Under the pieces are notes generated by a model, which saw only the letters and a list, made by a program, of their open reading frames with translations, ran no database searches and was not told the DNA's origin. A DNA stretch of 40,544 nucleotides from Bacteroidota bacterium (GTDB lineage: Bacteria > Bacteroidota > Bacteroidia > Chitinophagales > Chitinophagaceae): the NCBI GenBank assembly GCA_029560415.1, contig JAKQKY010000211.1, positions 1-40,544 on the forward strand, read 5' to 3'. Positions 26,317 through 40,544 of this stretch are shown piece after piece (position 1 is the first letter of the stretch; every line of letters starts with the position of its first letter). A program made the translations under genes and the position numbers.

Positions 26317-27438
26317 ATGAAGTATTATATCATTGCCGGGGAAGCCAGTGGCGACCTGCATGGCAGCAACCTTATCAAACAATTAAACAAGCTGGATACA
26401 GCTGCATCGGTACGTTGCTGGGGTGGCGATAAGATGGAAGCCGCTGGTGCTACATTGGTTAAACATTACCGCGATCTCGCTTTTATGGGATTTACCGAAG
26501 TGATTAAAAACCTCCCAACGATTTTTAAAAACCTGGCCTTTTGTAAAAAAGATATTCTCGAACATAAGCCCGATGTACTCATCCTCGTAGATTACCCAGG
26601 ATTCAACCTGCGCATTGCAAAATGGGCCCGGCAACAGGGACTTCGCATAGTATATTATATATCTCCGCAGGTTTGGGCATGGAAGGAGAACCGGGTGCAC
26701 AGCATTAAAAAAAATGTTGACAAAATGATGGTGATACTTCCCTTTGAAAAAGCCTTTTACCAAAAATGGAATTTTGAAGTAGATTATGTAGGTCATCCAC
26801 TGGTAGAAGTAGTAGATGCATTTAAACAAACAGGGAACAATGCAAGTGTAGCCGATTTGATGCAAGATCAGAAAGAGATCATCGCCTTATTACCCGGTAG
26901 TAGAAAACAGGAGATACTGAAAAAATTGCCGGTGATGCTCGAACTCACGAAACAATTTCCCGAATATCAATTTGTAGTAGCCAAAGCTCCGGGGCTGGAT
27001 GAACATTTTTATACAAACTTGTTACAGCCTTATCACAATGTAAGTTCGGTGTTGAATAAAACCTATGAATTACTAAGTTTGTCGAAAGCCGCACTGGTGA
27101 CCAGCGGCACCGCTACCCTGGAAACAGCTCTCTTCGCGGTTCCTGAGATCATTTGTTACAAAGGAAATGGCATTTCGTACCAGATCGCCAAAAGATTGAT
27201 CAATATAAAATTCATCGGGCTGGTAAACCTGATCATGGATAAAGAGGTAGTGAAGGAATTGATACAGGATGAACTTACCGTAAACAACCTGGCAACTGAA
27301 CTAAAAAAGCTGCTCGACGATCCCATTAAAATAAAGCAGGTACAGGAAGATTATCGCCAGCTGAAAGCACTGTTGAGCCAGGGTGGCCACGCTTCGGCCA
27401 ATGCGGCCAAACTGGTTTACGACATGATAAAACGCTGA
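26317..27438 (+). CDS. lpxB: Lipid-A-disaccharide synthase
   Basis: 373 residues, normal for LpxB (GT19). It joins UDP-2,3-diacylglucosamine and lipid X into the lipid A disaccharide at the inner face of the cytoplasmic membrane. It opens with the family hallmark IIAGEASGDLHGSNL. Also present are the IDYPGFN-like LVDYPGFNLR, YYISPQVWAWKENR, LPFEKAFY, ALLPGSRKQEI and TSGTATLETAL (sugar-nucleotide binding). It has its own start region (TTAATTTG at 26292-26299, close to a -7 box) and is divergent from the transpeptidase. Its presence shows a Gram-negative envelope. Confidence 0.97.
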   Translation: MKYYIIAGEASGDLHGSNLIKQLNKLDTAASVRCWGGDKMEAAGATLVKHYRDLAFMGFTEVIKNLPTIFKNLAFCKKDILEHKPDVLILVDYPGFNLRIAKWARQQGLRIVYYISPQVWAWKENRVHSIKKNVDKMMVILPFEKAFYQKWNFEVDYVGHPLVEVVDAFKQTGNNASVADLMQDQKEIIALLPGSRKQEILKKLPVMLELTKQFPEYQFVVAKAPGLDEHFYTNLLQPYHNVSSVLNKTYELLSLSKAALVTSGTATLETALFAVPEIICYKGNGISYQIAKRLINIKFIGLVNLIMDKEVVKELIQDELTVNNLATELKKLLDDPIKIKQVQEDYRQLKALLSQGGHASANAAKLVYDMIKR

Positions 27439-27441
27439 CGA

Positions 27442-27609
27442 TTATTTCCTCAGAAATAATTTAACTGCAATGATGACCAGGGCAATCAAAAAAAGTATGA
27501 TCGACAGCCGGTTGATGCCGTGCATATATTTCATCCATTGGGAAGGCTTTTCATTAGGATCGCGTTTCCTGATGTAAAGGTATTCTGCTACTTGTTTTAA
27601 CACACCCAT
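27442..27609 (-). CDS. Small single-helix membrane protein, DUF6728-like
   Basis: 55 residues from ATG 27609 (MGVLKQVAEYL); an earlier in-frame Met at 27639 is less likely. The N-terminal half is basic and soluble (YIRKRDPNEKPSQWMKYMHGINRLS) and the C-terminal half is one hydrophobic helix ending in KLFLRK. The RDPN and MHGINRLSI stretches recall DUF6728 of Bacteroidota; this is from memory and moderately sure. The stop is 3 bp from the convergent lpxB stop. Function unknown. Confidence 0.65.
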   Translation of the reverse strand: MGVLKQVAEYLYIRKRDPNEKPSQWMKYMHGINRLSIILFLIALVIIAVKLFLRK

Positions 27610-27703
27610 GATGTTGCTACATTTGAAAATGAATAACAAAGATAATTAAACAAAAAAGCTTGTTAAAGGTTTATGGTATAAATCCATTCTTCTCCATCTA
27701 TCG

Positions 27704-27711
27704 TAGTTTTG
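27704..27711 (+). promoter_or_regulatory. -7 element of msrB
   Basis: TAGTTTTG matches TAnnTTTG exactly, 13 bp before the msrB ATG at 27725. I see no convincing -33 TTTG at the expected distance. Confidence 0.5.
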
Positions 27712-27724
27712 AAAAATAATATAT

Positions 27725-28213
27725 ATGAAAAGGATCTTACCAGCATTGATTTTGATTGCAACCTCTGTTGGCTGCAATGCGCAACAGAAAAAAACTGCCG
27801 AAAAAGCGAAAACAACCCATACTTATGAAGTAACGAAAACAGATGCTGAATGGCGCAAGCAATTAAGCCCGATACAATACCAGGTTACCCGGCAAAAAGG
27901 AACTGAAAGGCCCTATACCGGCGTATATTGGGATAATCATGCTTCAGGAACGTATTCCTGTGTATGCTGCAACCTGCCTTTATTCAGTTCCACTACAAAA
28001 TTTGAAAGTGGTACCGGTTGGCCAAGTTTTTTTGCCCCTATTGATCAAAAGAACCTGGAAGAAATAACCGACAATAGTTTGGGCATGGTGCGTACGGAAG
28101 TGAATTGCCGCCGTTGCGGAGCACACCTCGGCCATGTATTTGACGATGGACCCAAACCAACCGGTTTACGATACTGCATGAACGCAGCATCATTGCTGTT
28201 TGTAAAAAAATAA
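27725..28213 (+). CDS. msrB: Lipoprotein peptide-methionine (R)-S-oxide reductase
   Basis: 162 residues. A signal sequence with lipobox TSVGC (Cys17) places it in the periplasm, lipid-anchored. The MsrB domain fills residues 38-160: the zinc site C79/C82 and C128/C131, GTGWPSF (96-102), GAHLGHVF and the catalytic Cys151 in RYCMN. It reduces the R form of methionine sulfoxide in proteins. No resolving Cys is evident in the usual upstream position, so recycling would need an external thiol or redox partner. It leads a plus-strand block with a Crp/Fnr regulator and b561/molybdopterin redox genes. Confidence 0.94.
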
Positions 28214-28241
28214 AATTAATTCATTCAGAATATTAACCCTT

Positions 28242-28961
28242 TTGCCGAATAACAGCTGCGATAACACTTTACTGCTCATCCGGGGCTTTGATATATTTGC
28301 CCATATCACGAATGAAGAATACGAAGAATTAAATCTCGTACATAATTTCCTTGAGGCCAAGAAAGGAGAGTTCATCTATTTTCCATCTCAAAACAAACGC
28401 AAGCTGTATTTTACCAAGCAAGGATATATCAAGATCGGTTATATTGATTCGGATGGAAATGAATGTATCAAAGAGATCATACAAAAGGGGGAAATATTTG
28501 GACAGTTAACCCTGGAACAAAACAACCTGGAAGATGAATTTGCCCAGGCTTATAAAGCTGATGTGAGTTTATGTGCTTTTAATATTGAAGATTTTTTTTC
28601 AATACTACAGAAAAAACCCGGGATGGCCCTGAGTTTCAGCATACACCTGGGCAATAAGGTAAAAAAAGTAGAAAACAGGTTGCTGAACCTGCTCAATAAA
28701 AATGTACAAAGCCGGCTCATCCATTTTTTGTTGAGCATGGTTGACCTGGCTGAATTAAAACGGTCGGGTAAAACAAATGTGGAAAGATATTTAACACACG
28801 ATGATATTGCCAAACTAATAGGATCTACCCGGCAAACGGTAACCACTACCCTAACCCAGCTTGGCAACGAGGAACTTATTGCTATAAACAAAACACATAT
28901 AGAGATCCTTAAACCCAACGAACTGAAAAATCTTGCAGATGTCGGCCACGTGACCAAATAA
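28242..28961 (+). CDS. Crp/Fnr-family transcription regulator
   Basis: 239 residues from TTG 28242; no ATG is available until deep in the protein. It has an N-terminal cyclic-nucleotide-binding-like beta-barrel (about 15-125), a long dimer helix (140-165) and a C-terminal winged HTH with THDDIAKLIGSTRQTVTTTLTQL (about 186-208). The four-Cys Fe-S cluster motif of FNR is absent. The few cysteines (C6, C64, C93) do not match it, so the signal is probably a small ligand or redox change of another kind. It sits 28 bp after msrB and 76 bp before the DM13 gene, so it is the likely regulator of this redox block. Confidence 0.88.
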   Translation: MPNNSCDNTLLLIRGFDIFAHITNEEYEELNLVHNFLEAKKGEFIYFPSQNKRKLYFTKQGYIKIGYIDSDGNECIKEIIQKGEIFGQLTLEQNNLEDEFAQAYKADVSLCAFNIEDFFSILQKKPGMALSFSIHLGNKVKKVENRLLNLLNKNVQSRLIHFLLSMVDLAELKRSGKTNVERYLTHDDIAKLIGSTRQTVTTTLTQLGNEELIAINKTHIEILKPNELKNLADVGHVTK

Positions 28962-28978
28962 AAAAGGCACACACCGTA

Positions 28979-29030
28979 GTTTTAGGAAATAGAAAAAGTA
29001 TGCAAATCACTTCATTCGATCACCTAAAAC
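28979..29030 (+). promoter_or_regulatory. Inverted repeat between the Crp/Fnr gene and the DM13 gene
   Basis: GTTTTAGG (28979-28986) and CCTAAAAC (29023-29030) are exact inverted copies 36 bp apart, the second ending 7 bp before the DM13 ATG at 29038. They could be two half-sites for the neighbouring regulator or the foot of a leader stem-loop. Between them a tandem-like ATCACTTC/GATCACC is seen. Confidence 0.4.
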
Positions 29031-29037
29031 ATTTTAT

Positions 29038-29484
29038 ATGAAAAAAATACCAGGACTTGTTTCGCTCCTTTTTACAGGAATATTTTTTTTATCGGCCTGC
29101 AAAAAAGCTTCAACAGAAATGATTAATGAAACGATTGTTGCCAATCCGTTAGATACAACCGCCAACGCTGCCATGTTAAAATACAGTGGACGATTTATGA
29201 ATGGTCCATATGGTACCGTTTCGGGCAGGGCAAAGATCTACCAGCAAAACGGGTTGTATTCGTTGGCTCTTGAAGGATTCAGCAGTGGCAATGGTCCGGA
29301 TCTGAAAGTATATCTCAGCAAAGAAATGATGCCATCAACGTTTATCAGCCTTGGCAGCCTACGGTCTACCAATGGCAACCAGGTTTATACCATTACAGGT
29401 TTGCCTGATTTCACACAATTTAAATTTGTATTGATCCATTGCGAACAATACAATCATTTGTTTGGCAGCGCAGAACTGGAATAA
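29038..29484 (+). CDS. DM13-domain lipoprotein
   Basis: 148 residues. Lipobox LSAC (Cys21) marks a periplasmic lipoprotein. Residues 48-148 match the DM13 domain: SGRF...GTVSGRAKIY, LALEGFSSGNGPDLKVYLS, SLGSLRSTNGNQVYTI and the near-invariant Cys135 in LIHCEQYNHLFGSAEL. DM13 was predicted to be a redox or electron-transfer domain because of this Cys and its association with cytochrome b561 and DOMON domains. Here it directly precedes a cytochrome b561 gene (41 bp), which supports that role. Confidence 0.86.
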   Translation: MKKIPGLVSLLFTGIFFLSACKKASTEMINETIVANPLDTTANAAMLKYSGRFMNGPYGTVSGRAKIYQQNGLYSLALEGFSSGNGPDLKVYLSKEMMPSTFISLGSLRSTNGNQVYTITGLPDFTQFKFVLIHCEQYNHLFGSAELE

Positions 29485-29525
29485 GCCGATAAACAGTACC
29501 GCATAATTAAGTGTATATTGTATAG

Positions 29526-30251
29526 ATGAAAAAAATTGTAAAAAAACATCCCCTTGCCATCCGTTGGTTTCACTGGTTGAATTTTCCGGTGCTGGCCGTG
29601 ATGATCTGGAGCGGTATGTTGATTTACTGGGCCAATGATGTATACAAACTGGGCTGGGGTGACAAAACCGTATTGAAATTTTTCCCTGATTCTTTTAATA
29701 AAGCATTGAATATTCCATTTCGCCTTGCAGAAGGCATGAACCTTCACTTTGTATTTATGTGGGTATTTGCGCTGAATGGATTGTTGTATTTTTTATACCT
29801 GGTTTTTTCAGGAGAGTGGAAACTACTGGCGCCAGGTAAAAAATCATGGAAGGAAGCCTGGCAGGTTTTACTACATGACCTGCGTATCCGGAAAGAAATG
29901 CCGCCGAAAAAAAAATACAACGCTGCCCAGCGTATAGCCTATACTGCGGTATTGATCATGGGTTTTCTGATGTTACTAACCGGGCTGGCCATATATAAAC
30001 CTGCACAACTATATTGGTTGTGTGCCATGTTGGGTGGATACGAATGGGCCCGTGCCGAACATTTTATCATTACAATCTTATTTGTTTTATTTTTCGTAAT
30101 ACACATCATACAAGTGGTGCTTGCCGGTTGGAATAATTTCAGGGGAATGGTCACAGGCTTTGAAGTAGTACCTGGCGAAAAAGAACCATCTGCAAAGGAT
30201 GCTGCAACGGTCAACCAATCATCTGATCACCACCCCAATCAAGCTATATGA
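29526..30251 (+). CDS. Cytochrome b561-type di-heme membrane protein
   Basis: 241 residues with four to five hydrophobic helices and four candidate heme-ligand histidines, one per helix: H16 (RWFHWLN), H74, H179 and H193. This is the PF01292 (Ni/Fe-hydrogenase/b561) layout. A soluble loop of about 40 residues lies between helices 2 and 3, and the C-terminal tail is cytoplasmic or periplasmic and polar. It should pass electrons between the quinone pool and a periplasmic partner. Its stop overlaps the start of the molybdopterin gene in an ATGA junction, so the two are translationally coupled and probably form one enzyme. Confidence 0.9.
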   Translation: MKKIVKKHPLAIRWFHWLNFPVLAVMIWSGMLIYWANDVYKLGWGDKTVLKFFPDSFNKALNIPFRLAEGMNLHFVFMWVFALNGLLYFLYLVFSGEWKLLAPGKKSWKEAWQVLLHDLRIRKEMPPKKKYNAAQRIAYTAVLIMGFLMLLTGLAIYKPAQLYWLCAMLGGYEWARAEHFIITILFVLFFVIHIIQVVLAGWNNFRGMVTGFEVVPGEKEPSAKDAATVNQSSDHHPNQAI

Positions 30252-31000
30252 AAAACAAGGAACAATGGCTCACCGCTTCGCAGATCAGGAACAAAACCAT
30301 CGTTGGGCTTATCTCCCTTTTTGCATTTTGCGCTGTTTGCTTTTTCGGTTGGCGATGGCTACATAACCAACCAAAGGATGCAGGTGCATTAAAACCTTTA
30401 CGTACGGTATTGAATGCCAATGAATCGATCTTTTCGGGCATGTTCAGCAACAATCATTTGTCGAAAACATTTTCAAAAGAACTGGCAGCACCACGGGTAC
30501 GGGTAAACGGAGATGTGGGTGTTGGCAAAGATTTCGATACTGCACAATGGAAATTACAGCTGATCCGGAATGCAGGTGACACGCAATATATATCCCTGGC
30601 AGAAATAAAAGCTTTACCCAAAACAGAGATCATCTTCGATTTTAAATGCATTGAGGGATGGAGCCAGGTTACCCATTGGGGCGGTGTACGTTACAGTGAC
30701 TTCATTAAAAAATACGGACTGGATACCCAAAGCAAACTACAATTTACCGGGCTGCATACGCCCGACAATGAATATTATGTTGGCATCGACAACAAAAGCA
30801 TGATGCATCCGCAAACCCTTCTATGTTATGAAATGAATGGAAAGCCGTTACCGATGAACCAGGGAGCTCCGCTTCGTCTAATCATTCCCGTTAAATACGG
30901 CGTTAAACACCTGAAACGTATCGGAACCATTTTCTTCAGCAGCCAGCGTCCGCCGGATTATTGGTACGAACGGGGGTATGATTATTATTGTGGGTTGTGA
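30248..31000 (+). CDS. YedY/MsrP-like molybdopterin oxidoreductase
   Basis: 250 residues with an N-terminal membrane anchor (about 16-38) in place of the twin-arginine signal of MsrP. The sulfite-oxidase-fold domain has the molybdenum-binding Cys134 in FKCIEGWS, very close to the CVEAWS of E. coli MsrP. It continues with GLHTPDNEYYVG, LLCYEMNGKPLPMNQGAPLRLI and the IPVKYGVKHLKRI end. MsrP repairs methionine sulfoxide in periplasmic proteins using electrons from heme protein MsrQ. Here cytochrome b561 takes the MsrQ position, and MsrB and DM13 lipoproteins are linked. The exact substrate is unproven; sulfoxides, N-oxides or nitrite-type acceptors are alternatives. Confidence 0.86.
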   Translation: MKNKEQWLTASQIRNKTIVGLISLFAFCAVCFFGWRWLHNQPKDAGALKPLRTVLNANESIFSGMFSNNHLSKTFSKELAAPRVRVNGDVGVGKDFDTAQWKLQLIRNAGDTQYISLAEIKALPKTEIIFDFKCIEGWSQVTHWGGVRYSDFIKKYGLDTQSKLQFTGLHTPDNEYYVGIDNKSMMHPQTLLCYEMNGKPLPMNQGAPLRLIIPVKYGVKHLKRIGTIFFSSQRPPDYWYERGYDYYCGL

Positions 31001-31122: not shown

Positions 31123-31153
31123 CAAATTGTCGTAAATTATATACCACTTTCAC

Positions 31154-31279
31154 CAAGTATCAAGTATCAAGTATCAAGTATCAAGTATCAAGTATCAAGT
31201 ATCAAGTATCAAGTATCAAGTATCAAGTATCAAGTATCAAGTATCAAGTATCTTGTATCCCGTATCCCGTATCCCGCAT
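31154..31279 (+). repeat. 7-bp tandem array: 14 perfect CAAGTAT plus four variant units
   Basis: Fourteen identical CAAGTAT units (31154-31251) are followed by CTTGTAT, CCCGTAT, CCCGTAT, CCCGCAT. The variant units are the same ones found in the degenerate array at 12206-12303. Perfect identity means recent expansion, so copy number is likely to vary between strains. The array ends 44 bp before the guaD ATG; with the 9-mer array it fills the 323-bp gap. Confidence 0.95.
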
Positions 31280-31323: not shown

Positions 31324-31797
31324 ATGACCAGAGAAGAAAAATTTATGCACGAAGCGATTGCTTTATCGTTAGATGGCATCCGGCAAAATCATGGCGGGCC
31401 ATTTGGCTGCGTGATCGTAAAAGGTGATACCATTGTTGGCCGTGGAAATAACCAGGTCACTTCCACCAACGATCCAACTGCCCATGCAGAAGTAGTAGCC
31501 ATCCGGGATGCCTGTAAAAACCTGGATACTTTTCAACTCGATGGATGTGAAGTATATACCAGCTGCGAGCCTTGCCCCATGTGCCTTGGCGCTATTTACT
31601 GGGCCCGGCCAAAAGTTATCTATTTCGCCAATAACCGTGAAGATGCCGCCAATGTTGGGTTTGATGATTCCATGATCTATGATGAAATGTCGGCGCAAAT
31701 TGAAAAAAGAAAGATCCCAATTCTTTCTTTGGGAAGAGAAGAGGCCTTAAAAGTTTTTATGGAGTGGAAAGACAAGGCAGATAAAACTACCTACTGA
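31324..31797 (+). CDS. guaD: Guanine deaminase (cytidine-deaminase fold)
   Basis: 157 residues, the size of the B. subtilis GuaD type. Zinc site H54-A-E56 (DPTAHAEVVAIRDAC) and PCPMC with C84 and C87. The C-terminal stretch GFDDSMIYDE is the part that distinguishes guanine deaminases from tRNA adenosine deaminases, which are also similar here. It turns guanine into xanthine and ammonia in the cytoplasm. It converges on xdhC with a 7-bp overlap of coding ends and feeds the xanthine dehydrogenase route encoded on the other strand. TadA is the alternative, but the C-terminus and neighbours favour GuaD. Confidence 0.88.
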   Translation: MTREEKFMHEAIALSLDGIRQNHGGPFGCVIVKGDTIVGRGNNQVTSTNDPTAHAEVVAIRDACKNLDTFQLDGCEVYTSCEPCPMCLGAIYWARPKVIYFANNREDAANVGFDDSMIYDEMSAQIEKRKIPILSLGREEALKVFMEWKDKADKTTY

Positions 31798-32744
31798 TCT
31801 TTATTTTTTACTGCAATGATCTCTGCGGCAATGCTGATGGCAATTTCATCGGCCGTCTGGCTTTTGATGGGAATACCGATGGGTGAATAAATGTTTGATA
31901 ACATACTTTCATCGATGCCTTCCCGCCGGTATGCTTCAAACATTTTTTCCATTTTACTGCGGCTGCCCAATACACCCAGGTAAGCATACTGATGGCTTAT
32001 CAAACTTCTTAGCGCTTCATCATCTGTTCGATATCCCATGGTCATGATGGCTATATAAGTATGGTCGTCTCCCTGGATATATTTTTTCAAATCAGCATAA
32101 CCTGGTACCGCAATCTTTTGATGAGCATATACATTCTGTTCAAAAGTATTCAACCCTTCCCTTTCTTCATAGATGCTGATGTGAAAATCAATGCTGCTCA
32201 TGAGTTTCGACAATGCCAATGCACAATGACCGCCGCCGATGATGTGGAGATGATAACGGTATCCTGTTTTAATGGTCAGCAGAAAATCTTCATCGTACGC
32301 TTCATATTGAAAATCACGTTGAGGCATATCCGCTGAAAATGAAAGTCCTGACTTTGTGATTTCCAAACTTCCATTGTTTCCGGCTGTGAGCGATTGAATA
32401 AGCCGCCCTATGGCCTGGCTATCTTTTTCCCGGATGGTATAAATAAATATGGTTTGTTCACCTGAGCAGATCATACCGCTTTGGTCTGTAACGGCCATTT
32501 TATCATGCACCTGTCTATGTACTTCAGAATAGGGCATTCCTTCTTTCAGCAATGCTTTGGCCATTTCTACAAACTTATGCTCCATGATGCCGCCGCCAAT
32601 GGTTCCGCAGAATTGTCCATTTGAAGAAACTGCCATGTGAAATCCCCTTCGCCCCGGTGAACTGCCAATGCTTTCGAGTACATACATCAGGATAACGGGT
32701 ACCCCTGTACGCTGATTGTCATAAATGAATTGCCAGGCCTGCAT
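31791..32744 (-). CDS. xdhC: XdhC-type maturation factor of xanthine dehydrogenase
   Basis: 317 residues. N-terminal XdhC/CoxI region with ESIGSSPGRRG (24-34) and GTIGGGIMEH; C-terminal Rossmann domain with HIIGGGHCALALSKLM binding a nucleotide, then MTMGYRTDDEALRSLI and YLGVLGSRSKM. XdhC binds molybdopterin cofactor, promotes its sulfuration and hands it to the large xanthine dehydrogenase subunit. It is the last gene of the purine operon, with a 3-bp gap from the DUF6986 gene. The substrate enzyme subunit is encoded at the right edge. Confidence 0.94.
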   Translation of the reverse strand: MQAWQFIYDNQRTGVPVILMYVLESIGSSPGRRGFHMAVSSNGQFCGTIGGGIMEHKFVEMAKALLKEGMPYSEVHRQVHDKMAVTDQSGMICSGEQTIFIYTIREKDSQAIGRLIQSLTAGNNGSLEITKSGLSFSADMPQRDFQYEAYDEDFLLTIKTGYRYHLHIIGGGHCALALSKLMSSIDFHISIYEEREGLNTFEQNVYAHQKIAVPGYADLKKYIQGDDHTYIAIMTMGYRTDDEALRSLISHQYAYLGVLGSRSKMEKMFEAYRREGIDESMLSNIYSPIGIPIKSQTADEIAISIAAEIIAVKNKDQ

Positions 32745-32747
32745 GAT

Positions 32748-34172
32748 CTATTTTTTCCTGTTTTCAAGTATCTTCTTGAATGAACGTCCGCGTATTTCCT
32801 CCAGCGTAAGACCAGTTACCAATACTTCTTCTTCGGTAATGGCCCCGCTATTCAATGCCCGCAGGAAATAGTTTAAAAGTCCCTGCCCGGTAGCTGCATC
32901 GTCAAACACATCGCCGATCAGTGTTGCCCTGGCAGCCTTTTCTACAAAGGTTTTCAGGCGCTCAACTGCATCATCATAGCTTTCGAGGAAGAAGGCGAAT
33001 ACAGCTGCATAACGCATCGGGAACTGGGCAGGATTCAAATCCCAGCCCTGGTAAAACCCGTTCCATAATGAATGACGGATATGATCATAACCTTTTTTCC
33101 AGGCACGGTGTACCGTTTCCCTGTTCTCCCTTAATTGATCTTCGGTCATGTTATCACCTCGGTGAGGGCCAATGGGCATGGTGTTCGTAGCACCATCAGA
33201 TAGCCAGATGCCGGTATGAGCGAGGGCAACCTTGGTCATGTGATGGGCAAAATCGCAGACAGGATGATCCATTTCCTGGTATCGTGCCGTGATGCTGCAG
33301 GAAGCAGTATAATCATAAGTTCCAAAATGCATGGCAATACAACGCCCCTTACTGGCTTGTACAAAACGATATAATGGATTGGTACCATCGGCATCCATGA
33401 TCGATTGGGTAGTTTCCACCATCATTTCCATTTTCAAAACACCGCTCTTCAGGTCAAGCTCTTCTTCCAGGATATCGAGGAAACTAACGAGGGTGCTTAC
33501 CTGCTCAGGGATGGTCACTTTAGGCAGCATGATCACGAAATTAGCAGGCAGCTTGCCGTTTGTTTTTTTAACGAGTGTACTTACAAACAGATCCAAAGTT
33601 CGCAACCCTCTTTCTTTCATTTCTTCGGTAAAAGGTTTGATGCGGATACCGATGAATGGAGGCAATGAATGTTCTTCCAGTCCTTTGGCAACTTCCAATG
33701 CAGCTTCAATGGCAGTTTGATCCTCTTCTTCATTGCTGCGGTTTCCGTAACCATCTTCAAAATCGATGCGGAAATCTTCAATGGCTTCCGAAGTAAGTTT
33801 ATTGATCACCTTATTATACACTTCAAGCGACAAACGCACAGGGTGCTTTTTTTTCTGTTCAGCATTCAATGCTTTGTATTCGTTGTATAGATCAAATGCC
33901 GATTGATTTTCATTCACCTGGTTGATGCCATCCATTCCGAAAATTTTTCCAAACTGTATGAAATCCGGTGCATAAAAATTAAATGTTTCCAATGCCCGCA
34001 GGCCAAGGGTTTTAGCCGAATCGGATTTAAACAGGTTGGCACCGCCATATACCGTGTGCACGGCCTGCCGGTCGGGCTTATCGCCTGGATAAATTTTCTG
34101 AAAAGATGTATTCGCTTTTCTTAATTTTTCAAACAACTGTTTTCTTTTCTTAGAAGGAATCGTTGCACTCAT
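32748..34172 (-). CDS. DUF6986 protein, CitE/HpcH/malate-synthase-like TIM-barrel
   Basis: 474 residues, no signal or membrane segment. It has a TIM-barrel lyase/synthase look: FRIDFEDGYGNR (D137, E139, D140), IGIRIKPF with R177, MMVETTQSIMDA with E253 and HFGTYDYTA with D287. The Glu/Asp pair would hold Mg2+ as in CitE, HpcH and malate synthase. The C-terminal 180 residues carry the conserved LAHTGIWLSDGATNTMPIGPHRG and a helical lid. It lies between uraD/uraH and xdhC inside a purine operon. Allantoate degradation ends in glyoxylate, which malate synthase normally uses, so a glyoxylate condensation or cleavage is a reasonable hypothesis; I know of no proven activity. Confidence 0.8.
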   Translation of the reverse strand: MSATIPSKKRKQLFEKLRKANTSFQKIYPGDKPDRQAVHTVYGGANLFKSDSAKTLGLRALETFNFYAPDFIQFGKIFGMDGINQVNENQSAFDLYNEYKALNAEQKKKHPVRLSLEVYNKVINKLTSEAIEDFRIDFEDGYGNRSNEEEDQTAIEAALEVAKGLEEHSLPPFIGIRIKPFTEEMKERGLRTLDLFVSTLVKKTNGKLPANFVIMLPKVTIPEQVSTLVSFLDILEEELDLKSGVLKMEMMVETTQSIMDADGTNPLYRFVQASKGRCIAMHFGTYDYTASCSITARYQEMDHPVCDFAHHMTKVALAHTGIWLSDGATNTMPIGPHRGDNMTEDQLRENRETVHRAWKKGYDHIRHSLWNGFYQGWDLNPAQFPMRYAAVFAFFLESYDDAVERLKTFVEKAARATLIGDVFDDAATGQGLLNYFLRALNSGAITEEEVLVTGLTLEEIRGRSFKKILENRKK

Positions 34173-34226
34173 GGTATGATGATTTATATTTTTATTGTTT
34201 GGATTGAATTCAATTTACATTACAGA

Positions 34227-35093
34227 TCAACTACCCCGGTACGTTGAATAACCAAAAGGATTGATGAGCAATGGTACATGATAATGGCTGTTGTCAAAAA
34301 TGGTGAATTGTATGTCTACCTGCGGGTAAAAACCTTTCAAACTCATGGCTTCAAAATAGGCCGCAGTTTCAAAAACCATTTTATAATTTCCAGGCTGAAG
34401 GTTGCGGGAAAGTGGCAACAGGTCAGGGATCCTGCCATCGGCATTTGTAACGCCCTGTGCAATAGTTTGCCAACTAATGCCGCCTGATTTTTGCAATCGT
34501 ATGCTGATGTCTCTCCCCGGCTTCCCGATCGATGTATCCAATACATGCGTGGTAAGCTGGCTAACCTTTAAGAACGACCAGTTGGCTTCATCCAGTAGTT
34601 TCTTAAAACGGAGTTGCGTTATTTTATGTTGTTCACCCATGGCGATGTTCAATTCTTCCTCCCTTGTATTCATAAGACGATCTGTGAGCAACCTCAGCAT
34701 TTCATTGGCTGATTTCCCGGTTGCACAAACAATAAAGATGAACCCAAATTTTTGTTCATACGCCAAGTTCGCTTTTGCAAGGTCTTCGATCACTTGTTGC
34801 GAAGCGGTATTTACAGATGACTGCTCGTTACCAGCCAGGTGTTGGGTAGATGCAAATTTTTCGGTCAGACTTTTCACATCCCCGATCTTTGGATGATGTG
34901 TAAAGGCTTCCAGCCAATCGGCTTCTGAACATTGATCGTACCAGGTCCGTTCAGCATTAAATATTAAATCTTCTTCCGATTTAAATGGAAAAGCATTCAG
35001 CAAATTTGTTAACCAAGTGGAAGAACCACAACAGGTTTCCAACAGTTTCCTGGCTTCATTTTTATCCAGTTTATTCAGATCATTTAATGTCAT
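34227..35093 (-). CDS. uraD/uraH: OHCU decarboxylase - HIU hydrolase fusion (UraD-UraH)
   Basis: 288 residues from ATG 35093 (MTLNDLNKLD); the longer frame from 35156 would overlap puuD by 34 bp. Residues 1-172 are OHCU decarboxylase with the catalytic FTHHPKIGD (H67), the GNEQSS loop and FGFIFIVCATGKSA. Residues 178-288 are the transthyretin-like 5-hydroxyisourate hydrolase with TTHVLDTSIGKPG (H183), a central Arg and the hallmark C-terminal YRGS. The second domain opens HIU to OHCU, and the first decarboxylates it to S-allantoin, so the two unstable intermediates are handled in one chain. The order matches plant allantoin synthase (TTL). It follows puuD by 29 bp. Confidence 0.95.
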   Translation of the reverse strand: MTLNDLNKLDKNEARKLLETCCGSSTWLTNLLNAFPFKSEEDLIFNAERTWYDQCSEADWLEAFTHHPKIGDVKSLTEKFASTQHLAGNEQSSVNTASQQVIEDLAKANLAYEQKFGFIFIVCATGKSANEMLRLLTDRLMNTREEELNIAMGEQHKITQLRFKKLLDEANWSFLKVSQLTTHVLDTSIGKPGRDISIRLQKSGGISWQTIAQGVTNADGRIPDLLPLSRNLQPGNYKMVFETAAYFEAMSLKGFYPQVDIQFTIFDNSHYHVPLLINPFGYSTYRGS

Positions 35094-35122
35094 AAAAATC
35101 GGTATTACTTGATGGTAATGTA

Positions 35123-36535
35123 TTACTTCAATGAAGCGCCTTGTTCTATCCAGCAACGGATCATATCTCTTTCTTTTTCTGTGATATTTGTTTTGTTATT
35201 CTGTGGCATCGTTTTCGTAACTACAACGCGTTGCATGATAAGATCTTTCTTTTTAACGATATCTTCCGGCGTATCATACATCACACCGTTGGGTGCGGCT
35301 GTATATACATCATCGGTAGGTTTGGATGAATGACAGCTTACACATCTTTTCTGGATGATAGCATTCACTTCGGGGAAACTGATGGTGGTGGAACAGGCCC
35401 CCGGTTTCTCGGGAGCTGAAATGAATGCACCCGCCAGCAATACCACAACTGAAAACGGCATTACCCAAACAGATAACTGCCCCTTTTCTTTCAGGTTCAG
35501 GTAATGCTTCACCCCGGCTGTACCAAGTGTGATGATGGCCAGTATCAGCCACGGGTATTCGTAACCGAAAGTGCTGGGAAAATGATTGCTGATCATCACA
35601 AAAAGCACGGGCAATGTAAAATAGTTATTGTGCAAAGAACGGAGGCCGGCATGTTTTCCCAATGATGGATCCAGTGGTTTGCCTTCCTTCGCTGCCTTCA
35701 CCATGGCTTTTTGTGAAGGAATGATCACAAAAAATACATTTGCCACCATAATAGAACCCAGCATCGCCCCAAAATGAATATAAGCAGCCCGGGCACTGAA
35801 AACATGACTGTAAAAGTAAGCGAAGCCTACTGCGATGACGAATCCGACCAGGGTGAACCATATTCCCTTTTTCACCAGCGCTGTTTTACAAAGAAAACCA
35901 TAAATAATCCAGGCTACCACGAACGAACCCACACCAATGGCAATGCCCTGCAGTGGCGTGATATCCAAAATATTTTTATCGATCAATAAAGCAGAAGCAT
36001 TGAAATAATATACCACAAACAACAGGCAGAACCCTGAAAGCCAGGTAAAATAAGCTTCGTACTTAAACCAATGCAGGTGCTTTGGAATTTCTTTTGGTGC
36101 TACTTTGTATTTTTCAAGATAATAGAAACCGCCGCCGTGTACTGCCCAAAGATTTCCCGCCAGTTCATCCCGAACATCACGGGTACGATTAAGTGCATTT
36201 TCAAGAAACACAAAATAAAAGGAAGCGCCAATCCAGGCAATACCAAAGGTGATGTGCATTAACCGGATGACGATGTTGAGCCATTCCATGAGATGTCCTT
36301 CCCAAACGGTACCCTTCACCGTGAGGTAAAAAGCCACTACCATGCTTACAATGGTGAGCACAATGGCAGTATAAATAAAATTCTGGGAGCTCAGGACAGA
36401 TTCCTGCCGGCCATCGGTATCCCCGTTTTCCTCCTCCTCATCCGCAGTTTTTTTAACGGTACGCAGGAAATAGGTCATCACCACCAGCATGATGAGGATG
36501 GCCAGCAATACCACGAGTAAAATAATACCAGTCAT
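35123..36535 (-). CDS. puuD: Membrane urate hydroxylase with C-terminal cytochrome c (PuuD)
   Basis: 470 residues. A first helix (1-25) and an acidic linker (33-45) precede the PuuD core of about eight helices (52-375), with many conserved His/Trp/Tyr residues including GNLWAVHGGGFYYLEKYK and LRSLHNNYFTLP. The C-terminal domain is a class I cytochrome c: CVSCH (C398, C401, H402) with M443 in TMPQNN as likely axial ligand. PuuD oxidises urate to 5-hydroxyisourate and sends electrons through the heme to the respiratory chain, avoiding the peroxide made by soluble uricase. The stop-start gap to alc is 3 bp. No uricase (UOX/HpxO) is needed alongside. Confidence 0.95.
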   Translation of the reverse strand: MTGIILLVVLLAILIMLVVMTYFLRTVKKTADEEEENGDTDGRQESVLSSQNFIYTAIVLTIVSMVVAFYLTVKGTVWEGHLMEWLNIVIRLMHITFGIAWIGASFYFVFLENALNRTRDVRDELAGNLWAVHGGGFYYLEKYKVAPKEIPKHLHWFKYEAYFTWLSGFCLLFVVYYFNASALLIDKNILDITPLQGIAIGVGSFVVAWIIYGFLCKTALVKKGIWFTLVGFVIAVGFAYFYSHVFSARAAYIHFGAMLGSIMVANVFFVIIPSQKAMVKAAKEGKPLDPSLGKHAGLRSLHNNYFTLPVLFVMISNHFPSTFGYEYPWLILAIITLGTAGVKHYLNLKEKGQLSVWVMPFSVVVLLAGAFISAPEKPGACSTTISFPEVNAIIQKRCVSCHSSKPTDDVYTAAPNGVMYDTPEDIVKKKDLIMQRVVVTKTMPQNNKTNITEKERDMIRCWIEQGASLK

Positions 36536-36538
36536 AAA

Positions 36539-37570
36539 TTATCCCTTTTTCTTTCCAAATAACCGCAACCTGCTCACCCCGCCATCAGGGAAAATATTCA
36601 GGCGTACATGCGTATACGTTTGTTGACCTGTGATCTCATTAATGAACTCATGCTCTTTATCTGCTTCCAGTTTTTGTTGTGGCAACAGGGTTTCCCATGT
36701 TACGCTGTTTTGTTTTACCATTTCATCATCGGCACTGTTACAGGCTTCGATGGAGCAACTATCGGGGTAATTACCTTTAAAATGACAAGTATCTACCACA
36801 ATTCGTTGTATGGTACCAGCTGTGGCCAGTTTCAGGATCACCCAATCACGGTTGCCAGGTGTGCGGTTGCGTTTGGTTTCCCATCCGTCGCCCATATTTA
36901 CGCCCCTGTTTGGCATGATGAGATTTCCCATGGCACTAAAAAACATATCATTGCAGGCAAGCGCCTTACCCCCATGGATAGCCGCTGCCAGGTCGATCTC
37001 CGTTTCAGGGGAAATAGCATCCCAGTTTTTAAATACCTCACCATATACCCTGAGCCTGGCAACACCACCATCGGGATAAATGTGCAGGCGAAGATGGGTG
37101 AATAGTTCTTCGCTGTTTACCAGGTAAAAATTCTGGCTCCCCGCATCCAGGTGCGATTTGGGAAGTATTTCTTTCCACCGGATCGAATCACTATCCCATT
37201 GGGTAACAGGAGCGGCATCATCGAGATAAACTGCTTCTATAGAGGCATGAGGAGGATGATTGCCCAGGAAAAAATTGGTATCTATATCTACCCCGATGAT
37301 CTTACCAGGCGTAGCCAGTTGTATGATGGCCCAATCGTGACCCGGAGTGCGTTTACGCCGGCTTTCCCAGCCATCCATCCATTTGCCCCGATCGGTATAC
37401 TTATCGGTTATAAAGATGCCCCTGCCAGGTTTCAGCAGGTTTTCTTTTTCTGCAAAAAAGTCATCTGTTGCATGCAACACTTTACCACCAAGGCGTTCAG
37501 CTGCAAGGTCGGTAAACCGGGTGAAATAAGGAGACTCTTTAATGATCTCTGTAACTTTTTGAAATGCCAT
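36539..37570 (-). CDS. alc: Allantoicase
   Basis: 343 residues made of two tandem allantoicase jelly-roll repeats: about 15-178 and 190-342. Each repeat shows ATDDFF or ACNDMFF, then GW..KR.RTPG with DW.I..LA..G.I, D.DTNFFLGN or DTCHFKGN, and ends in TH.RL.IYPDGGVARLR or TH.RLNIFPDGGVSRLR. It splits allantoate into (S)-ureidoglycolate and urea. It lies directly before puuD (3 bp) and 55 bp after allB. Its use means that half the allantoate nitrogen leaves as urea, yet no urease genes are in the window. Confidence 0.96.
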   Translation of the reverse strand: MAFQKVTEIIKESPYFTRFTDLAAERLGGKVLHATDDFFAEKENLLKPGRGIFITDKYTDRGKWMDGWESRRKRTPGHDWAIIQLATPGKIIGVDIDTNFFLGNHPPHASIEAVYLDDAAPVTQWDSDSIRWKEILPKSHLDAGSQNFYLVNSEELFTHLRLHIYPDGGVARLRVYGEVFKNWDAISPETEIDLAAAIHGGKALACNDMFFSAMGNLIMPNRGVNMGDGWETKRNRTPGNRDWVILKLATAGTIQRIVVDTCHFKGNYPDSCSIEACNSADDEMVKQNSVTWETLLPQQKLEADKEHEFINEITGQQTYTHVRLNIFPDGGVSRLRLFGKKKG

Positions 37571-37625
37571 AATATATTATTTATATAAGCTGAAACTAAT
37601 TAAGGGTCATTCAGCTTTTGATTTT

Positions 37626-38966
37626 CTACTTCACATTTATAATATTCATTCCGGCGTGATCTGTTTCATTGATGAATACCCCTTCAGAAAAAACGGTTCT
37701 TCCGTTTACGATAGTTTTCTTCACGACACCATACATGGTTTCGCCAGTATACGGACAAGCCTTATGCCGGTGATATATACCAGGTTCACATACCTGCATT
37801 TTTTCCTCCGGCGACCAAATTACGATATCCGCATCATAGCCCACAGCGATCTTCCCTTTGCTGTCATCAATACTTAAAAAACGAGCAGGCTTTTCCGTTA
37901 GTAATGGAATGAATGTATCAAGAGAGAGTGTATCTTTTAATGCAGTCCATCCCGCAGGTAATAAATATTGCAGGCCAGCGATACCGCCCCAGGCTTTTTG
38001 CAGGTTACCTGATAGCAACTCCTTGATCTCAGCTGGTGCGGGCGAATGGTCGGTAGCCAGGAAATCGAGTACGCCTGACTGTAATGCTTTCTTTAAAAGT
38101 GAATTATTTGCTTTTTCCCGGATGGGTGGTGCACATTTGAACAAACAATTGCCATCTGGAATATCTTCTGCATTAAAATAAATATAATGTGCACAGGTTT
38201 CGGCGGAAATTGGTAAGCCTTCCTCCTTTGCAAGCCTGATCGATTCCAGTGCTTCGGCAGATGATACATGTACAATATGCACCCTGCAACGATGTTTCCT
38301 GCACAGCCTGATCATCATGTTTATGGCATCATTCTCCCATTGTTTTGGCCTGCTGGCCAGGTACTCAGCATAACTGCTTGGCTTACCGTCGAGGTCACAC
38401 GGAGCTACCTGTTCATCTATCTCACAATGAACCAGTAACGGTAACCCATATGCGGCGATGATGGGCATGGCCGCATCTATATCCTGTTCAGCCACATTGG
38501 GAAATTCATCGATACCAGAATGTACCAGGAAACATTTTATGCCCAATACACCGGCCTGCATCATCGGTACGAGTTCGTTTAAATTGCCTGGGATCAAGCC
38601 GCCATAATAACCTACGTTTACATGCTTCTTTTCTTGTGCCGATTTTAATTTCTCCTTTAAAGCAGCAAGGGAAGAAGTGACAGGGCTTGCGTTCAGTGGC
38701 ATATCAACTATGGAAGTTATACCACCCGCAGCAGCGGCTTTTGTTGCCGTTTCGAATCCTTCCCATTCAGTACGACCTGGCTCATTCACATGCACATGAG
38801 CATCTATCACGCCAGGCATGATCACATCACTTCCTACATCAATTGCATCAACCTCACGCTCCAAACGAATGCGAGTGATCTTTCCTTGTTCAATAGTTAT
38901 CGTTGCCGGAGCTAACTTCCCATTTACCCAACACCTGTTACTAAATATTTTTGTTGATTGATTCAA
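37626..38966 (-). CDS. allB: Allantoinase
   Basis: 446 residues, cyclic amidohydrolase fold. Zinc ligands are visible: H57 and H59 (DAHVHVNEPGRTEWEGFE), the carboxylated K144 (LGIKCFLVHSG), H180 (LLVHCE), H233 (HIVHVSS) and D306 (LATDHSPAP). The N-terminal NEPGRTEWEGF and the short insertion pattern favour allantoinase over dihydroorotase or hydantoinase. It opens the allantoin ring to allantoate. The only start near the conserved N-terminus is TTG at 38966, with an in-frame TAG shortly upstream. Spacing is 37 bp from xdhB and 55 bp to alc. Confidence 0.95.
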   Translation of the reverse strand: MNQSTKIFSNRCWVNGKLAPATITIEQGKITRIRLEREVDAIDVGSDVIMPGVIDAHVHVNEPGRTEWEGFETATKAAAAGGITSIVDMPLNASPVTSSLAALKEKLKSAQEKKHVNVGYYGGLIPGNLNELVPMMQAGVLGIKCFLVHSGIDEFPNVAEQDIDAAMPIIAAYGLPLLVHCEIDEQVAPCDLDGKPSSYAEYLASRPKQWENDAINMMIRLCRKHRCRVHIVHVSSAEALESIRLAKEEGLPISAETCAHYIYFNAEDIPDGNCLFKCAPPIREKANNSLLKKALQSGVLDFLATDHSPAPAEIKELLSGNLQKAWGGIAGLQYLLPAGWTALKDTLSLDTFIPLLTEKPARFLSIDDSKGKIAVGYDADIVIWSPEEKMQVCEPGIYHRHKACPYTGETMYGVVKKTIVNGRTVFSEGVFINETDHAGMNIINVK

Positions 38967-39003
38967 TAAAAAAATTTTATGCTACTTAATACTGTTAATA
39001 AAT

Positions 39004-40544
39004 TCAGGATTGGTTTAGTGTTGCTGATTGGTTTGCATCCACAAGCCTGGCTTCCTTGTTACCACTATACAACCCCATCAATAGCTTTTCGGGTGTCATG
39101 GGCGCCGAAAAACCAATGTGACTGGAAGGGTTAAACGCTTTTATAGCATTTCGCAGTGCAAAATAAACACCGATGCCATACATGAGTGGTGGCTCTCCTA
39201 CTGCTTTGGAGCGAAAAATGGCCAGGTTGTCTTTACTGGTTTCAAGGAAATCCAGTTCGATTTTGCGGGGTACAGAATAAATGTCCGGCACTTTATAAGT
39301 AGATAAAGCATTGCTGCGCAATCTACCTTCCGCATCATAAACGATCTCTTCCATCGTCATCCAGCCAATACCCTGTACGATCCCCCCTTCGATCTGGCCC
39401 CTATCGATCATTTCATTCATAGTATCTCCCACATCATGTACCAATTGCACAGCATCGGTTTCATAAACTCCCCGGAGGCAGTCAACCGTAACCGTTGTGA
39501 TGGCCGTTCCATATACATGATATGCAAATGGGTGTCCTTTTTCAATTGTATTATCAAAATGTATATCAGGCGTTGCATAATGGGCATGTTCGCTGAGGCT
39601 TACCCGCTTCAGGTAGGCTGCAATTACCAGATCATTCCAGGTTAAGGGTGCCGGATTTCCATTTACCTGTATCACCTCATGTTGTATACTGATGGCCGAA
39701 GATTCGCAGGAAAGGATTTCACCTGCGGCAGATTTTAAACGTTCGAGTATTTGTTCACAAGCCATTTGCACCGCTTTACCATTGAGGTCAGCCGTAGCAC
39801 TTGCTGCTGAAGGCGACGTATTGGCAATGCGGTAAGTATTGGTACTATTAACTTTTATCTTCTTAGGATCCACCGAAAAAATGGCTGATGCAACCTGGAG
39901 CATCTTGGTGTTTACCCCCTGTCCCATTTCCACAGCTCCTGTACTTATGTTGATACTACCGTCCATGTATACATGCACCAATGCCCTCGCCTGGTTCATG
40001 AGTATCTTCGTAAAAGAAATACCAAAACAGATTGGCATAAATGAAATGCCTTTTTTAAACTGATGATTGGCTGCATTGAACTGCTCTATGTCCTGGCGCA
40101 TCTTCTCAACCTGGAAATGTACAGAAGCTTTTTCCCAGCAGGCAGCCGCTTCGCTAACAGCCCGTTGGCCATAGGGAAATTCATCGCCGCTATTGATGAG
40201 ATTCTTTTGCTGGATAACGGCAGCGGGTATACCCAATTTATCGGCCGCTTTGGCAATGGCCGCTTCGATTACGAACATTCCCTGCGGGCCGCCAAAACCC
40301 CGGAAAGCCGTGTTTGGAGGCAGGTTCGTTCTGCAACTATAGGCCGTTGCCGTTACATTGGGAATAAAATAACTGTTGGTACAATGAAAGAGTGTTCTTT
40401 CCAAAACTGCCGGCGACAGGTCTGCAGCAGCTCCGGCGTTCTGGTGAAACACTGCTTCGTAAGCTAATATCTTTAAATCGGCATCGAGGCCAATTTTAAA
40501 ATCAGACGAATAGGGGTTACGCTTACCGGTCATGCGCATGTCTT
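39004..40544 (-). CDS. xdhB: Xanthine dehydrogenase molybdopterin-binding subunit (partial)
   Basis: The last 513 or so codons of a gene that continues past the right edge; the frame is open to 40544 and the residue before MRMTGKR is Asp, as in the conserved DM..TGKR motif, so the Met at 40539 is internal. Present are PPNTAFRGFGGPQGMFVIE (Arg of the substrate pocket), GAVEMGQGVNTKMLQVAS contacting the cofactor, and KAVGEPPLMYGIGVYFA with the catalytic base Glu. It oxidises hypoxanthine/xanthine to urate. The iron-sulfur/FAD subunit (xdhA) is expected just outside the window. It is the first visible gene of the purine operon. Confidence 0.95.
   Translation of the reverse strand, partial: DMRMTGKRNPYSSDFKIGLDADLKILAYEAVFHQNAGAAADLSPAVLERTLFHCTNSYFIPNVTATAYSCRTNLPPNTAFRGFGGPQGMFVIEAAIAKAADKLGIPAAVIQQKNLINSGDEFPYGQRAVSEAAACWEKASVHFQVEKMRQDIEQFNAANHQFKKGISFMPICFGISFTKILMNQARALVHVYMDGSINISTGAVEMGQGVNTKMLQVASAIFSVDPKKIKVNSTNTYRIANTSPSAASATADLNGKAVQMACEQILERLKSAAGEILSCESSAISIQHEVIQVNGNPAPLTWNDLVIAAYLKRVSLSEHAHYATPDIHFDNTIEKGHPFAYHVYGTAITTVTVDCLRGVYETDAVQLVHDVGDTMNEMIDRGQIEGGIVQGIGWMTMEEIVYDAEGRLRSNALSTYKVPDIYSVPRKIELDFLETSKDNLAIFRSKAVGEPPLMYGIGVYFALRNAIKAFNPSSHIGFSAPMTPEKLLMGLYSGNKEARLVDANQSATLNQS

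Follow-up and report, generated by a model that had tools for sequence, protein, structure and literature searches.

A cytochrome b561 gene and the gene of a membrane-anchored molybdoprotein of the sulfite-oxidase fold, adjacent on the forward strand of contig JAKQKY010000211.1 from a Bacteroidota bacterium of the family Chitinophagaceae, form the core of the locus described here. We think it probable, by analogy with MsrPQ of Proteobacteria, that this pair is a quinol-linked, b561-based counterpart of that system, whose most likely substrate is methionine sulfoxide of envelope proteins or a closely related S-oxide. The window, that is, the whole stretch of 40,544 nucleotides that was analysed, had received an initial annotation in which five consecutive genes, for a lipoprotein MsrB, a Crp/Fnr-type regulator, a DM13 lipoprotein, the b561 and the molybdoprotein, were proposed as an MsrPQ-like block for methionine sulfoxide repair. 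Open reading frames and Pfam and NCBIfam families agree on these five genes, on one strand and in this order, with intergenic gaps of 28, 76, 41 and -4 bases, the last being the 4-bp overlap that the annotation had reported. As an interpretation it is partly supported: the b561 and the molybdoprotein form a single unit and are repeatedly linked to methionine sulfoxide reductase (Msr) genes in relatives, but the molybdoprotein falls below the cut-off of the MsrP model and DM13 and Crp are not fixed members of the locus.

The b561 and molybdoprotein genes form one unit

The b561 (29526-30251, + strand) has four hydrophobic helices and a single Pfam match, PF01292 (Ni_hydr_CYTB, prokaryotic b561), at 81.7 bits against a cut-off of 30.1. 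The four histidines to which the initial annotation drew attention, which are predicted heme ligands, are invariant among the aligned sequences (H16 in 151/151; H74, H179 and H193 in 153/153), and by model score and ligands together the protein belongs to the prokaryotic cytochromes b561. The molybdoprotein (30248-31000, + strand) matches PF00174 (Oxidored_molyb) at 99.5 bits. The window's family was sampled with 117 genomes, of which the same 23 have the molybdoprotein (E < 1e-80) and the b561 (E < 1e-90), as neighbours in every case (nominal Fisher p 7e-25, kinship ignored). The two genes are fused in two genomes of the family, G095 and G065, and single fused chains are seen in the relatives L052, L053 and L160. 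The pair is patchy, the molybdoprotein being present in 17 of 298 genomes of the window's order (E 1e-30), 15 of 395 genomes sampled from the phylum (E 1e-25) and, in the order to which genome G738 belongs, 70 of 370 (E 1e-40).

Gene neighborhoods were compared in three sets with no sequence in common: 80 named loci, which are biased to close kin because they are the best 80 of 374 confirmed relatives, five loci of the group f23, and 70 of G738's order (f23 is assumed to be Mucilaginibacter-like, and G738's order is presumably Cytophagales). The closest named relatives are from Chitinophagaceae and Ferruginibacter. The resulting 155 loci do not include the window and, given the near-duplicates L106/L107 and L226/L227, represent about 153 distinct ones; the named 80 overlap with 22 loci of the family sample (e.g. 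L032 and L099), and counts from the two were never summed. A gene is counted as near the pair when it lies within 4.5 kb, neighbors being labelled by a fixed query set. By this measure a b561 lies near the molybdoprotein in 79 of the 80 named loci (the exception, L159, begins at the molybdoprotein), in 5/5 loci of f23 and in 68/70 of G738's order.

Two variants of this arrangement were seen in passing. L055 (3764-5440) and L056 (6810-8483) encode a fused b561-molybdoprotein chain of about 557 residues, a distant paralogue that has matches in similarly long open frames of G018, G030, G035, G040, G045 and G074, and two far genomes of the phylum (L224 and L225) have the reversed order, a short molybdoprotein relative preceding the b561.

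Comparison with MsrPQ and Sco3746

The correspondence drawn by the initial annotation between CIEGWS in the molybdoprotein and CVEAWS in MsrP is borne out by alignment with PDB entry 1xdq (‘bacterial sulfite oxidase’), which we take to be the Escherichia coli protein now called MsrP. Cys134 of this motif, the predicted molybdenum ligand by the same alignment, is invariant in 21/21 sequences. Entry 1xdq is also the best PDB sequence match of the molybdoprotein (E 1e-14, vs 4.7e-9 for sulfite oxidase), and the best NCBIfam model is that of MsrP (NF003767; 81.8 bits, vs 51.6 for SorA). The predicted structure (mean predicted local distance difference test score 78.5) has the sulfite-oxidase fold and matches 1xdy in Foldseek with an E-value of 5.6e-11. 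The fold and the cysteine of C-x-E-x-W-S are thus features of MsrP that are present here, both being common to much of the wider fold family.

MsrQ, the partner of MsrP, is a ferric-reductase-like protein with a PF01794 domain. The pair in the window shares with MsrPQ (YedYZ) a C-x-E-x-W-S molybdoprotein of this fold, a membrane partner of the b-heme type and, in part of its loci, linkage to methionine repair genes. The differences lie in the molybdoprotein score (81.8 vs the 207 bits required for MsrP), in an N-terminal hydrophobic helix that would hold the protein in the membrane (residues 17-35 by hydropathy, 10-39 in the structure model), in the twin-arginine (Tat) signal, which in the window reads RN instead of RR, and in the partner, which matches PF01292 and not PF01794. 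By these tested sequence features the pair is not MsrPQ. The MsrP equivalog cut-off is passed in none of the 117 family genomes, which raises the question of how members of this family might repair oxidised envelope methionines with respiratory electrons. Two matches to TatC were found in the window's genome, for which contamination is put at 7.3%.

Among described proteins, the closest in build is Sco3746, presented by Tooke et al. (2017; PMC5449189) as having five transmembrane helices, with heme histidines in helices 2-4, followed by a molybdenum cofactor domain. According to the same account, homologues of Sco3746 conserve the twin-arginine, and distant homologues, MsrP/MsrQ being named, widely occur as separate chains. 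L052, L053 and L160 are likewise single fused chains, whereas in the window there are two genes and in most relatives the two are separate.

Methionine sulfoxide reductases near the pair

The window's MsrB gene (27725-28213, + strand; SelR 176.5 bits, TIGR00357 198.9 bits vs a cut-off of 113.05) encodes a predicted lipoprotein (Cys17, by eye) with the cysteines that we take to bind zinc (Cys79, 82, 128 and 131) and to be catalytic (Cys151), so that both the equivalog model and the cysteines place it in MsrB. That it lacks an obvious resolving cysteine, as the initial annotation had it, holds for the usual site, which is a threonine (SGTGWPSF) here and in 27 of 28 pair-linked MsrBs; the 28th, in L100, ends at a contig edge with this site unread. 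There is, on the other side, an extra cysteine, C81, between two of the zinc-site cysteines, and an MsrB without a resolving cysteine is therefore likely, not proven. The protein resembles other envelope Msr enzymes, secreted or lipoprotein, in being thiol-based with zinc and catalytic cysteines, and differs from them in its usual resolving site and in adjoining a b561-molybdoprotein pair.

Among the 76 named loci (of 80) with at least 400 bases upstream of the b561, 26 have MsrB upstream on the same strand, at a spacing of 32-345 bases, or 741 in L097, where an antisense gene intervenes. The commonest order is LpxB, a small antisense gene, MsrB, b561 and molybdoprotein. The order LpxB-MsrB-b561-molybdoprotein, with neither Crp nor DM13, is seen in three genomes of the window's genus, G289 and two that are already in the named set (G245 as L090, G342 as L105). 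Mapped on a tree of 91 molybdoproteins, linkage to MsrB has changed seven times or more, a raw count in which 40 of the 88 internal branches are left open. We had also considered MsrB scores as strong evidence, the seven best (E < 1e-53, the window included) all being from pair-bearing genomes, and gave this up, similar MsrBs being found beside LpxB in two same-genus genomes without the pair.

Over all named loci MsrB is near the pair in 26/80 and MsrA in 2/80. In Segetibacter koreensis (L144) the genes run MsrB-MsrA-MsrB-b561-molybdoprotein, and in Chitinophagales bacterium 62-2 (L156) DM13-DUF1223-MsrA-MsrB-b561-molybdoprotein. For G738's order the counts are MsrA 6/70 and MsrB 2/70, one or both being present in 6/70. 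MsrA is on the strand of the pair in L219, L222, L223, L249 and L286; L249 reads b561-molybdoprotein-DUF1223-MsrA on one strand, while L223 and L286 read MsrB-b561-molybdoprotein-sigma factor-MsrA, and in L286 both MsrA and MsrB score above their NCBIfam cut-offs. A peculiarity of the MsrB in L223 and L286 is that it reads YYCAAD at the first zinc-site pair, where aspartate replaces one zinc cysteine.

A thioredoxin-clan protein and a sigma-factor/peptide cluster

DUF1223, a family of the thioredoxin clan (PMC3091736), is near the pair in 9/80 named loci, 4/5 of f23 and 32/70 of G738's order. Extracytoplasmic function (ECF) sigma factors of the queried kinds are near it in 5/80, 5/5 and 14/70 (24/155 in total), anti-sigma-like genes in 5/80, 5/5 and 11/70 (21/155) and short secreted peptides rich in methionine and lysine in 6/80, 3/5 and 4/70 (13/155). 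In ten loci (L147, L152, L160, L164, L214, L216, L218, L226, L227 and L276) all three lie together within 4.5 kb, and in L214 and L226 they stand in a row, in the order sigma factor, anti-sigma-like gene and peptide, on the strand opposite to the pair. In L214 the sigma factor passes both TIGR02937 and TIGR02943; its anti-sigma-like neighbor and that of L226 reach 45.3 and 46.5 bits on NF052368, below its cut-off of 50, and the three Met-rich peptides that were scanned matched no NCBIfam family.

The peptide count requires some explanation. Our filter returned 17 matches, of which five (L086, L088, L099, L032 and L070) were discarded by eye as non-peptide frames; to the 12 kept, L218 was added by hand in spite of a lower methionine fraction, and L215, which resembles these loci by look, was left out. 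On 22 stretches away from the pair (0.30 Mb), the only match of the filter was the discarded L070. As a control for the neighborhoods in general, 20 stretches of 20 kb were hand-picked at round coordinates, in genomes with the pair that belong to f23 or to G738's order; MsrA, MsrB, DUF1223, the queried sigma factors and Met-rich peptides were found in none of them. At least one of MsrA, MsrB, the peptide and DUF1223 is near the pair in 78/155 loci vs 0/20 controls (p 3.5e-6, kinship ignored).

A similar make-up is known elsewhere. Sigma and anti-sigma factors that are induced by hypochlorous acid and encoded next to MsrQP and a Met-rich MXKDX protein have been described (PMC8315932), the loci named there being bcrS-abcS-bcrXQP in Brucella and yedYZ-mrpX in Azospira. 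The ten relatives above have the corresponding set beside the pair; they differ in that the b561 and molybdoprotein take the place of MsrQP, often with DUF1223, and the window itself has no sigma factor, anti-sigma gene or peptide of this kind.

Other genes were seen upstream of the b561 in some relatives. A secreted fasciclin-domain protein is encoded there in eight named loci (L120, L123, L124, L134, L135, L143, L153 and L154) and likewise in L038, L039, L041, L042 and L047 (checked with Pfam for L038 only), and a gene of the metallo-beta-lactamase fold in two named loci.

Proposed function and its alternatives

What might such a pair do? In the explanation we favor, quinol would reduce the four-helix b561, which, in the place of MsrQ, would pass electrons to the molybdoprotein, whose catalytic domain is predicted to lie outside the inner membrane, held by its one N-terminal helix, and which, like MsrP, would act on envelope proteins by reducing their methionine sulfoxide or a similar S-oxide. 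Beside it, the window's thiol-based lipoprotein MsrB would handle R-sulfoxides, while in relatives a secreted MsrA, DUF1223 or the set of ECF sigma factor, anti-sigma factor and Met-rich peptide would occupy the neighboring slots, the thiols of MsrB and MsrA perhaps being supplied by DUF1223 where it is present. The quinol donor, the direction of electron flow, the topology and the substrate we infer from MsrPQ and from what is generally known of b561 cytochromes. If the explanation is correct, the b561 and molybdoprotein would be an equivalent of MsrPQ that uses another heme partner, DUF1223 and possibly DM13 would gain a role that can be tested, and the slot of MsrPQ in bleach-defense loci could be filled in another way. 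The literature that we searched, from which most subscription papers were absent, contained no report of a b561-molybdoprotein pair in methionine repair.

Several observations weigh against this explanation. The same queries and filter that found MsrA, DUF1223, the sigma factor, the anti-sigma gene and the Met-rich peptide in relatives found none of these at the window's own locus, and no MsrA or MsrB was found by the fixed queries within 4.5 kb of the pair in 54/80 named loci, 5/5 loci of f23 and 64/70 of G738's order. For MsrA and MsrB alone the contrast with the controls is modest (32/155 vs 0/20, Fisher p 0.027, kinship ignored), and the controls come from two lineages, leaving uncovered the window's family, which holds most of the MsrB cases. 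The twin-arginine, absent in the window, was called in only 47/103 homologues (by a simple script with fixed dipeptide order, on rows that include repeats); a signal so patchy, unlike its conservation around Sco3746, leaves the export of a loaded molybdoprotein unexplained. The co-occurrence that the initial annotation had asked to see checked is complete in the family sample for the b561 and molybdoprotein, partial for MsrB and without correlation for DM13; its own objection, that msrB might usually be unlinked to the other three genes, thus applies to DM13 and, given the 54 named loci above, in part to the pair.

Linkage to Msr genes would also be expected from a shared stress regulon without a shared reaction, and on this rests the strongest competing explanation, in which the pair would be a quinol-dependent reductase of free S- or N-oxides, chlorine oxyanions or chloramines that has only a reactive-chlorine or oxidative regulon in common with MsrA, MsrB and the Met-rich peptide. 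The neighbors do differ by lineage (MsrB, MsrA, DUF1223, fasciclin, metallo-beta-lactamase fold), the ECF sigma factors in 24 of the 155 loci point to stress control, and a majority of loci have no Msr gene nearby. We nevertheless consider it unlikely, since several neighbors (MsrA, MsrB and the Met-rich peptide) are specific to methionine and the sigma/anti-sigma/peptide set matches a locus published with MsrP in the molybdoenzyme slot (PMC8315932).

Could electrons instead flow in the opposite direction, from sulfite or a related donor through a sulfite-oxidase-like dehydrogenase and the b561 to the quinone pool? The top Foldseek E-values, which also count against our own explanation, are those of chicken sulfite oxidase and Starkeya sulfite dehydrogenase and not MsrP. 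Sequence points the other way, by the closer PDB match to 1xdq and the higher score on the MsrP than on the SorA model, and no sulfite-metabolism gene was recognised beside the pair among neighbors labelled by the fixed query set only; we regard this reversal as improbable.

A further question is whether the linkage to MsrB is positional only, the pair having landed by chance beside an old LpxB-MsrB locus. LpxB is near the pair in 20/80 named loci, and LpxB-MsrB is kept in two same-genus genomes that lack the pair (G319 and G258), from which it follows that the adjacency of MsrB and LpxB is independent of the pair and that a single event may account for the linkage in this clade; a large part of the MsrB linkage may thus go back to one ancient insertion next to LpxB and MsrB genes already in place, which diminishes its value for the function we propose. 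As an account of the Msr linkage as a whole, chance placement is quite improbable, because MsrA or MsrB stands beside the pair, in other gene orders, in L144, L156 and L161 and in six loci of G738's order, in none of which LpxB was found.

We return to the pair as an envelope reductase for a broader and more tentative proposal. Bacteroidota may have built a b561-based, quinol-driven envelope methionine sulfoxide reductase separately from MsrPQ, able to fill the slot of MsrPQ in a bleach-defense module of sigma factor, anti-sigma factor and Met-rich peptide, and feeding or cooperating with MsrA and MsrB through DUF1223, with DM13 as a further carrier in the window and L156. In this full form the proposal is possible but doubtful.

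The DM13 and Crp genes

Between MsrB and the b561 lie the genes of a Crp/Fnr-type regulator (28242-28961, + strand, TTG start; HTH_Crp_2 55.5 and cNMP_binding 36.6 bits, both above the Pfam cut-off) and of the DM13 protein (29038-29484, + strand), a predicted lipoprotein (Cys21, by eye) that belongs to the DM13 family (PF10517, 52.6 bits, cut-off 25). The conserved cysteine that the initial annotation saw in DM13 is Cys135, present in 17/17 aligned sequences. The five genes may be transcribed together, Crp and DM13 sharing the transcript of the genes on either side; what DM13 might do there we can only guess.

By Pfam, DM13 occurs in 12 of the 117 family genomes, 2/23 with the pair and 10/94 without (p 1.0), a protein search adding one more genome with the pair, G064, by a weak relative. 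At order level the protein search finds it in 23/298 genomes, 2/17 with the pair (G000 and G064) and 21/281 without (p 0.63). Apart from the window it is near the pair in only 1 of the 155 loci, L156. The family sample has 11 further genomes with DM13. Eight of them (L074, L075, L076 and L078-L082) have it near YHS, DoxX, YceI, DinB or NRDE genes, which is not so in L077, L083 and L084 (these labels are by eye, except in L076, where YHS, DoxX and YceI were scanned), and neither MsrB nor b561 turned up near it in any of the 11. We had entertained DM13 and Crp as core members and rejected them on these grounds, DM13 being mostly with genes of the YHS/DoxX/YceI type and uncorrelated with the pair. 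Crp and DM13 were probably inserted together between MsrB and the b561 from another cluster, in the lineage of the window, because a similar Crp (52-55% identical to the window's) stands in two DM13 loci elsewhere, L076 and L079, and same-genus loci lack both. That all five genes are one machine, with DM13 an obligate electron carrier recycling MsrB with electrons from the b561, is accordingly highly improbable, even though DM13 ends 41 bases before the b561, has one invariant cysteine in its domain and opens the run in L156 with a 56% identical copy, given the distribution just described and the three same-genus loci without it.

A fold search with DM13 gave weak matches, the best being Candida SOD5 (E 0.018, TM-score 0.5), and phmmer against solved structures gave two with E of about 0.4; no mechanism was drawn from these. 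In L081 (4533-8003) DUF1223 follows DM13 on the same strand after 2.4 kb, no pair being found in that genome; together with L156 this makes a DM13-DUF1223 connection possible, not general.

Flanking regions

To the left of MsrB lie LpxB, the lipid-A-disaccharide synthase (26317-27438, + strand; PF02684, 328.6 bits), and, between the two and antisense, the gene of a small protein with one transmembrane helix by eye (27442-27639, - strand), whose homologues are likewise placed in many relatives. The sequence TAGTTTTG (27704-27711, + strand), 13 bases upstream of the msrB start, fits TAnnTTTG, presumably the -7 promoter consensus of Bacteroidota, and is a weak promoter candidate because four such matches occur on the + strand within 27.4-31.0 kb. 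To the right, a gene of the cytidine/guanine-deaminase family and then XdhC open a run (31324-40539) that looks like purine or ureide breakdown and in which the open reading frame 34227-35156 reads, by eye, as a fusion of OHCU decarboxylase and HIU hydrolase. Directly 3′ of the molybdoprotein gene, at about 31150-31260, is a run of ‘aagtatc’ tandem repeats.

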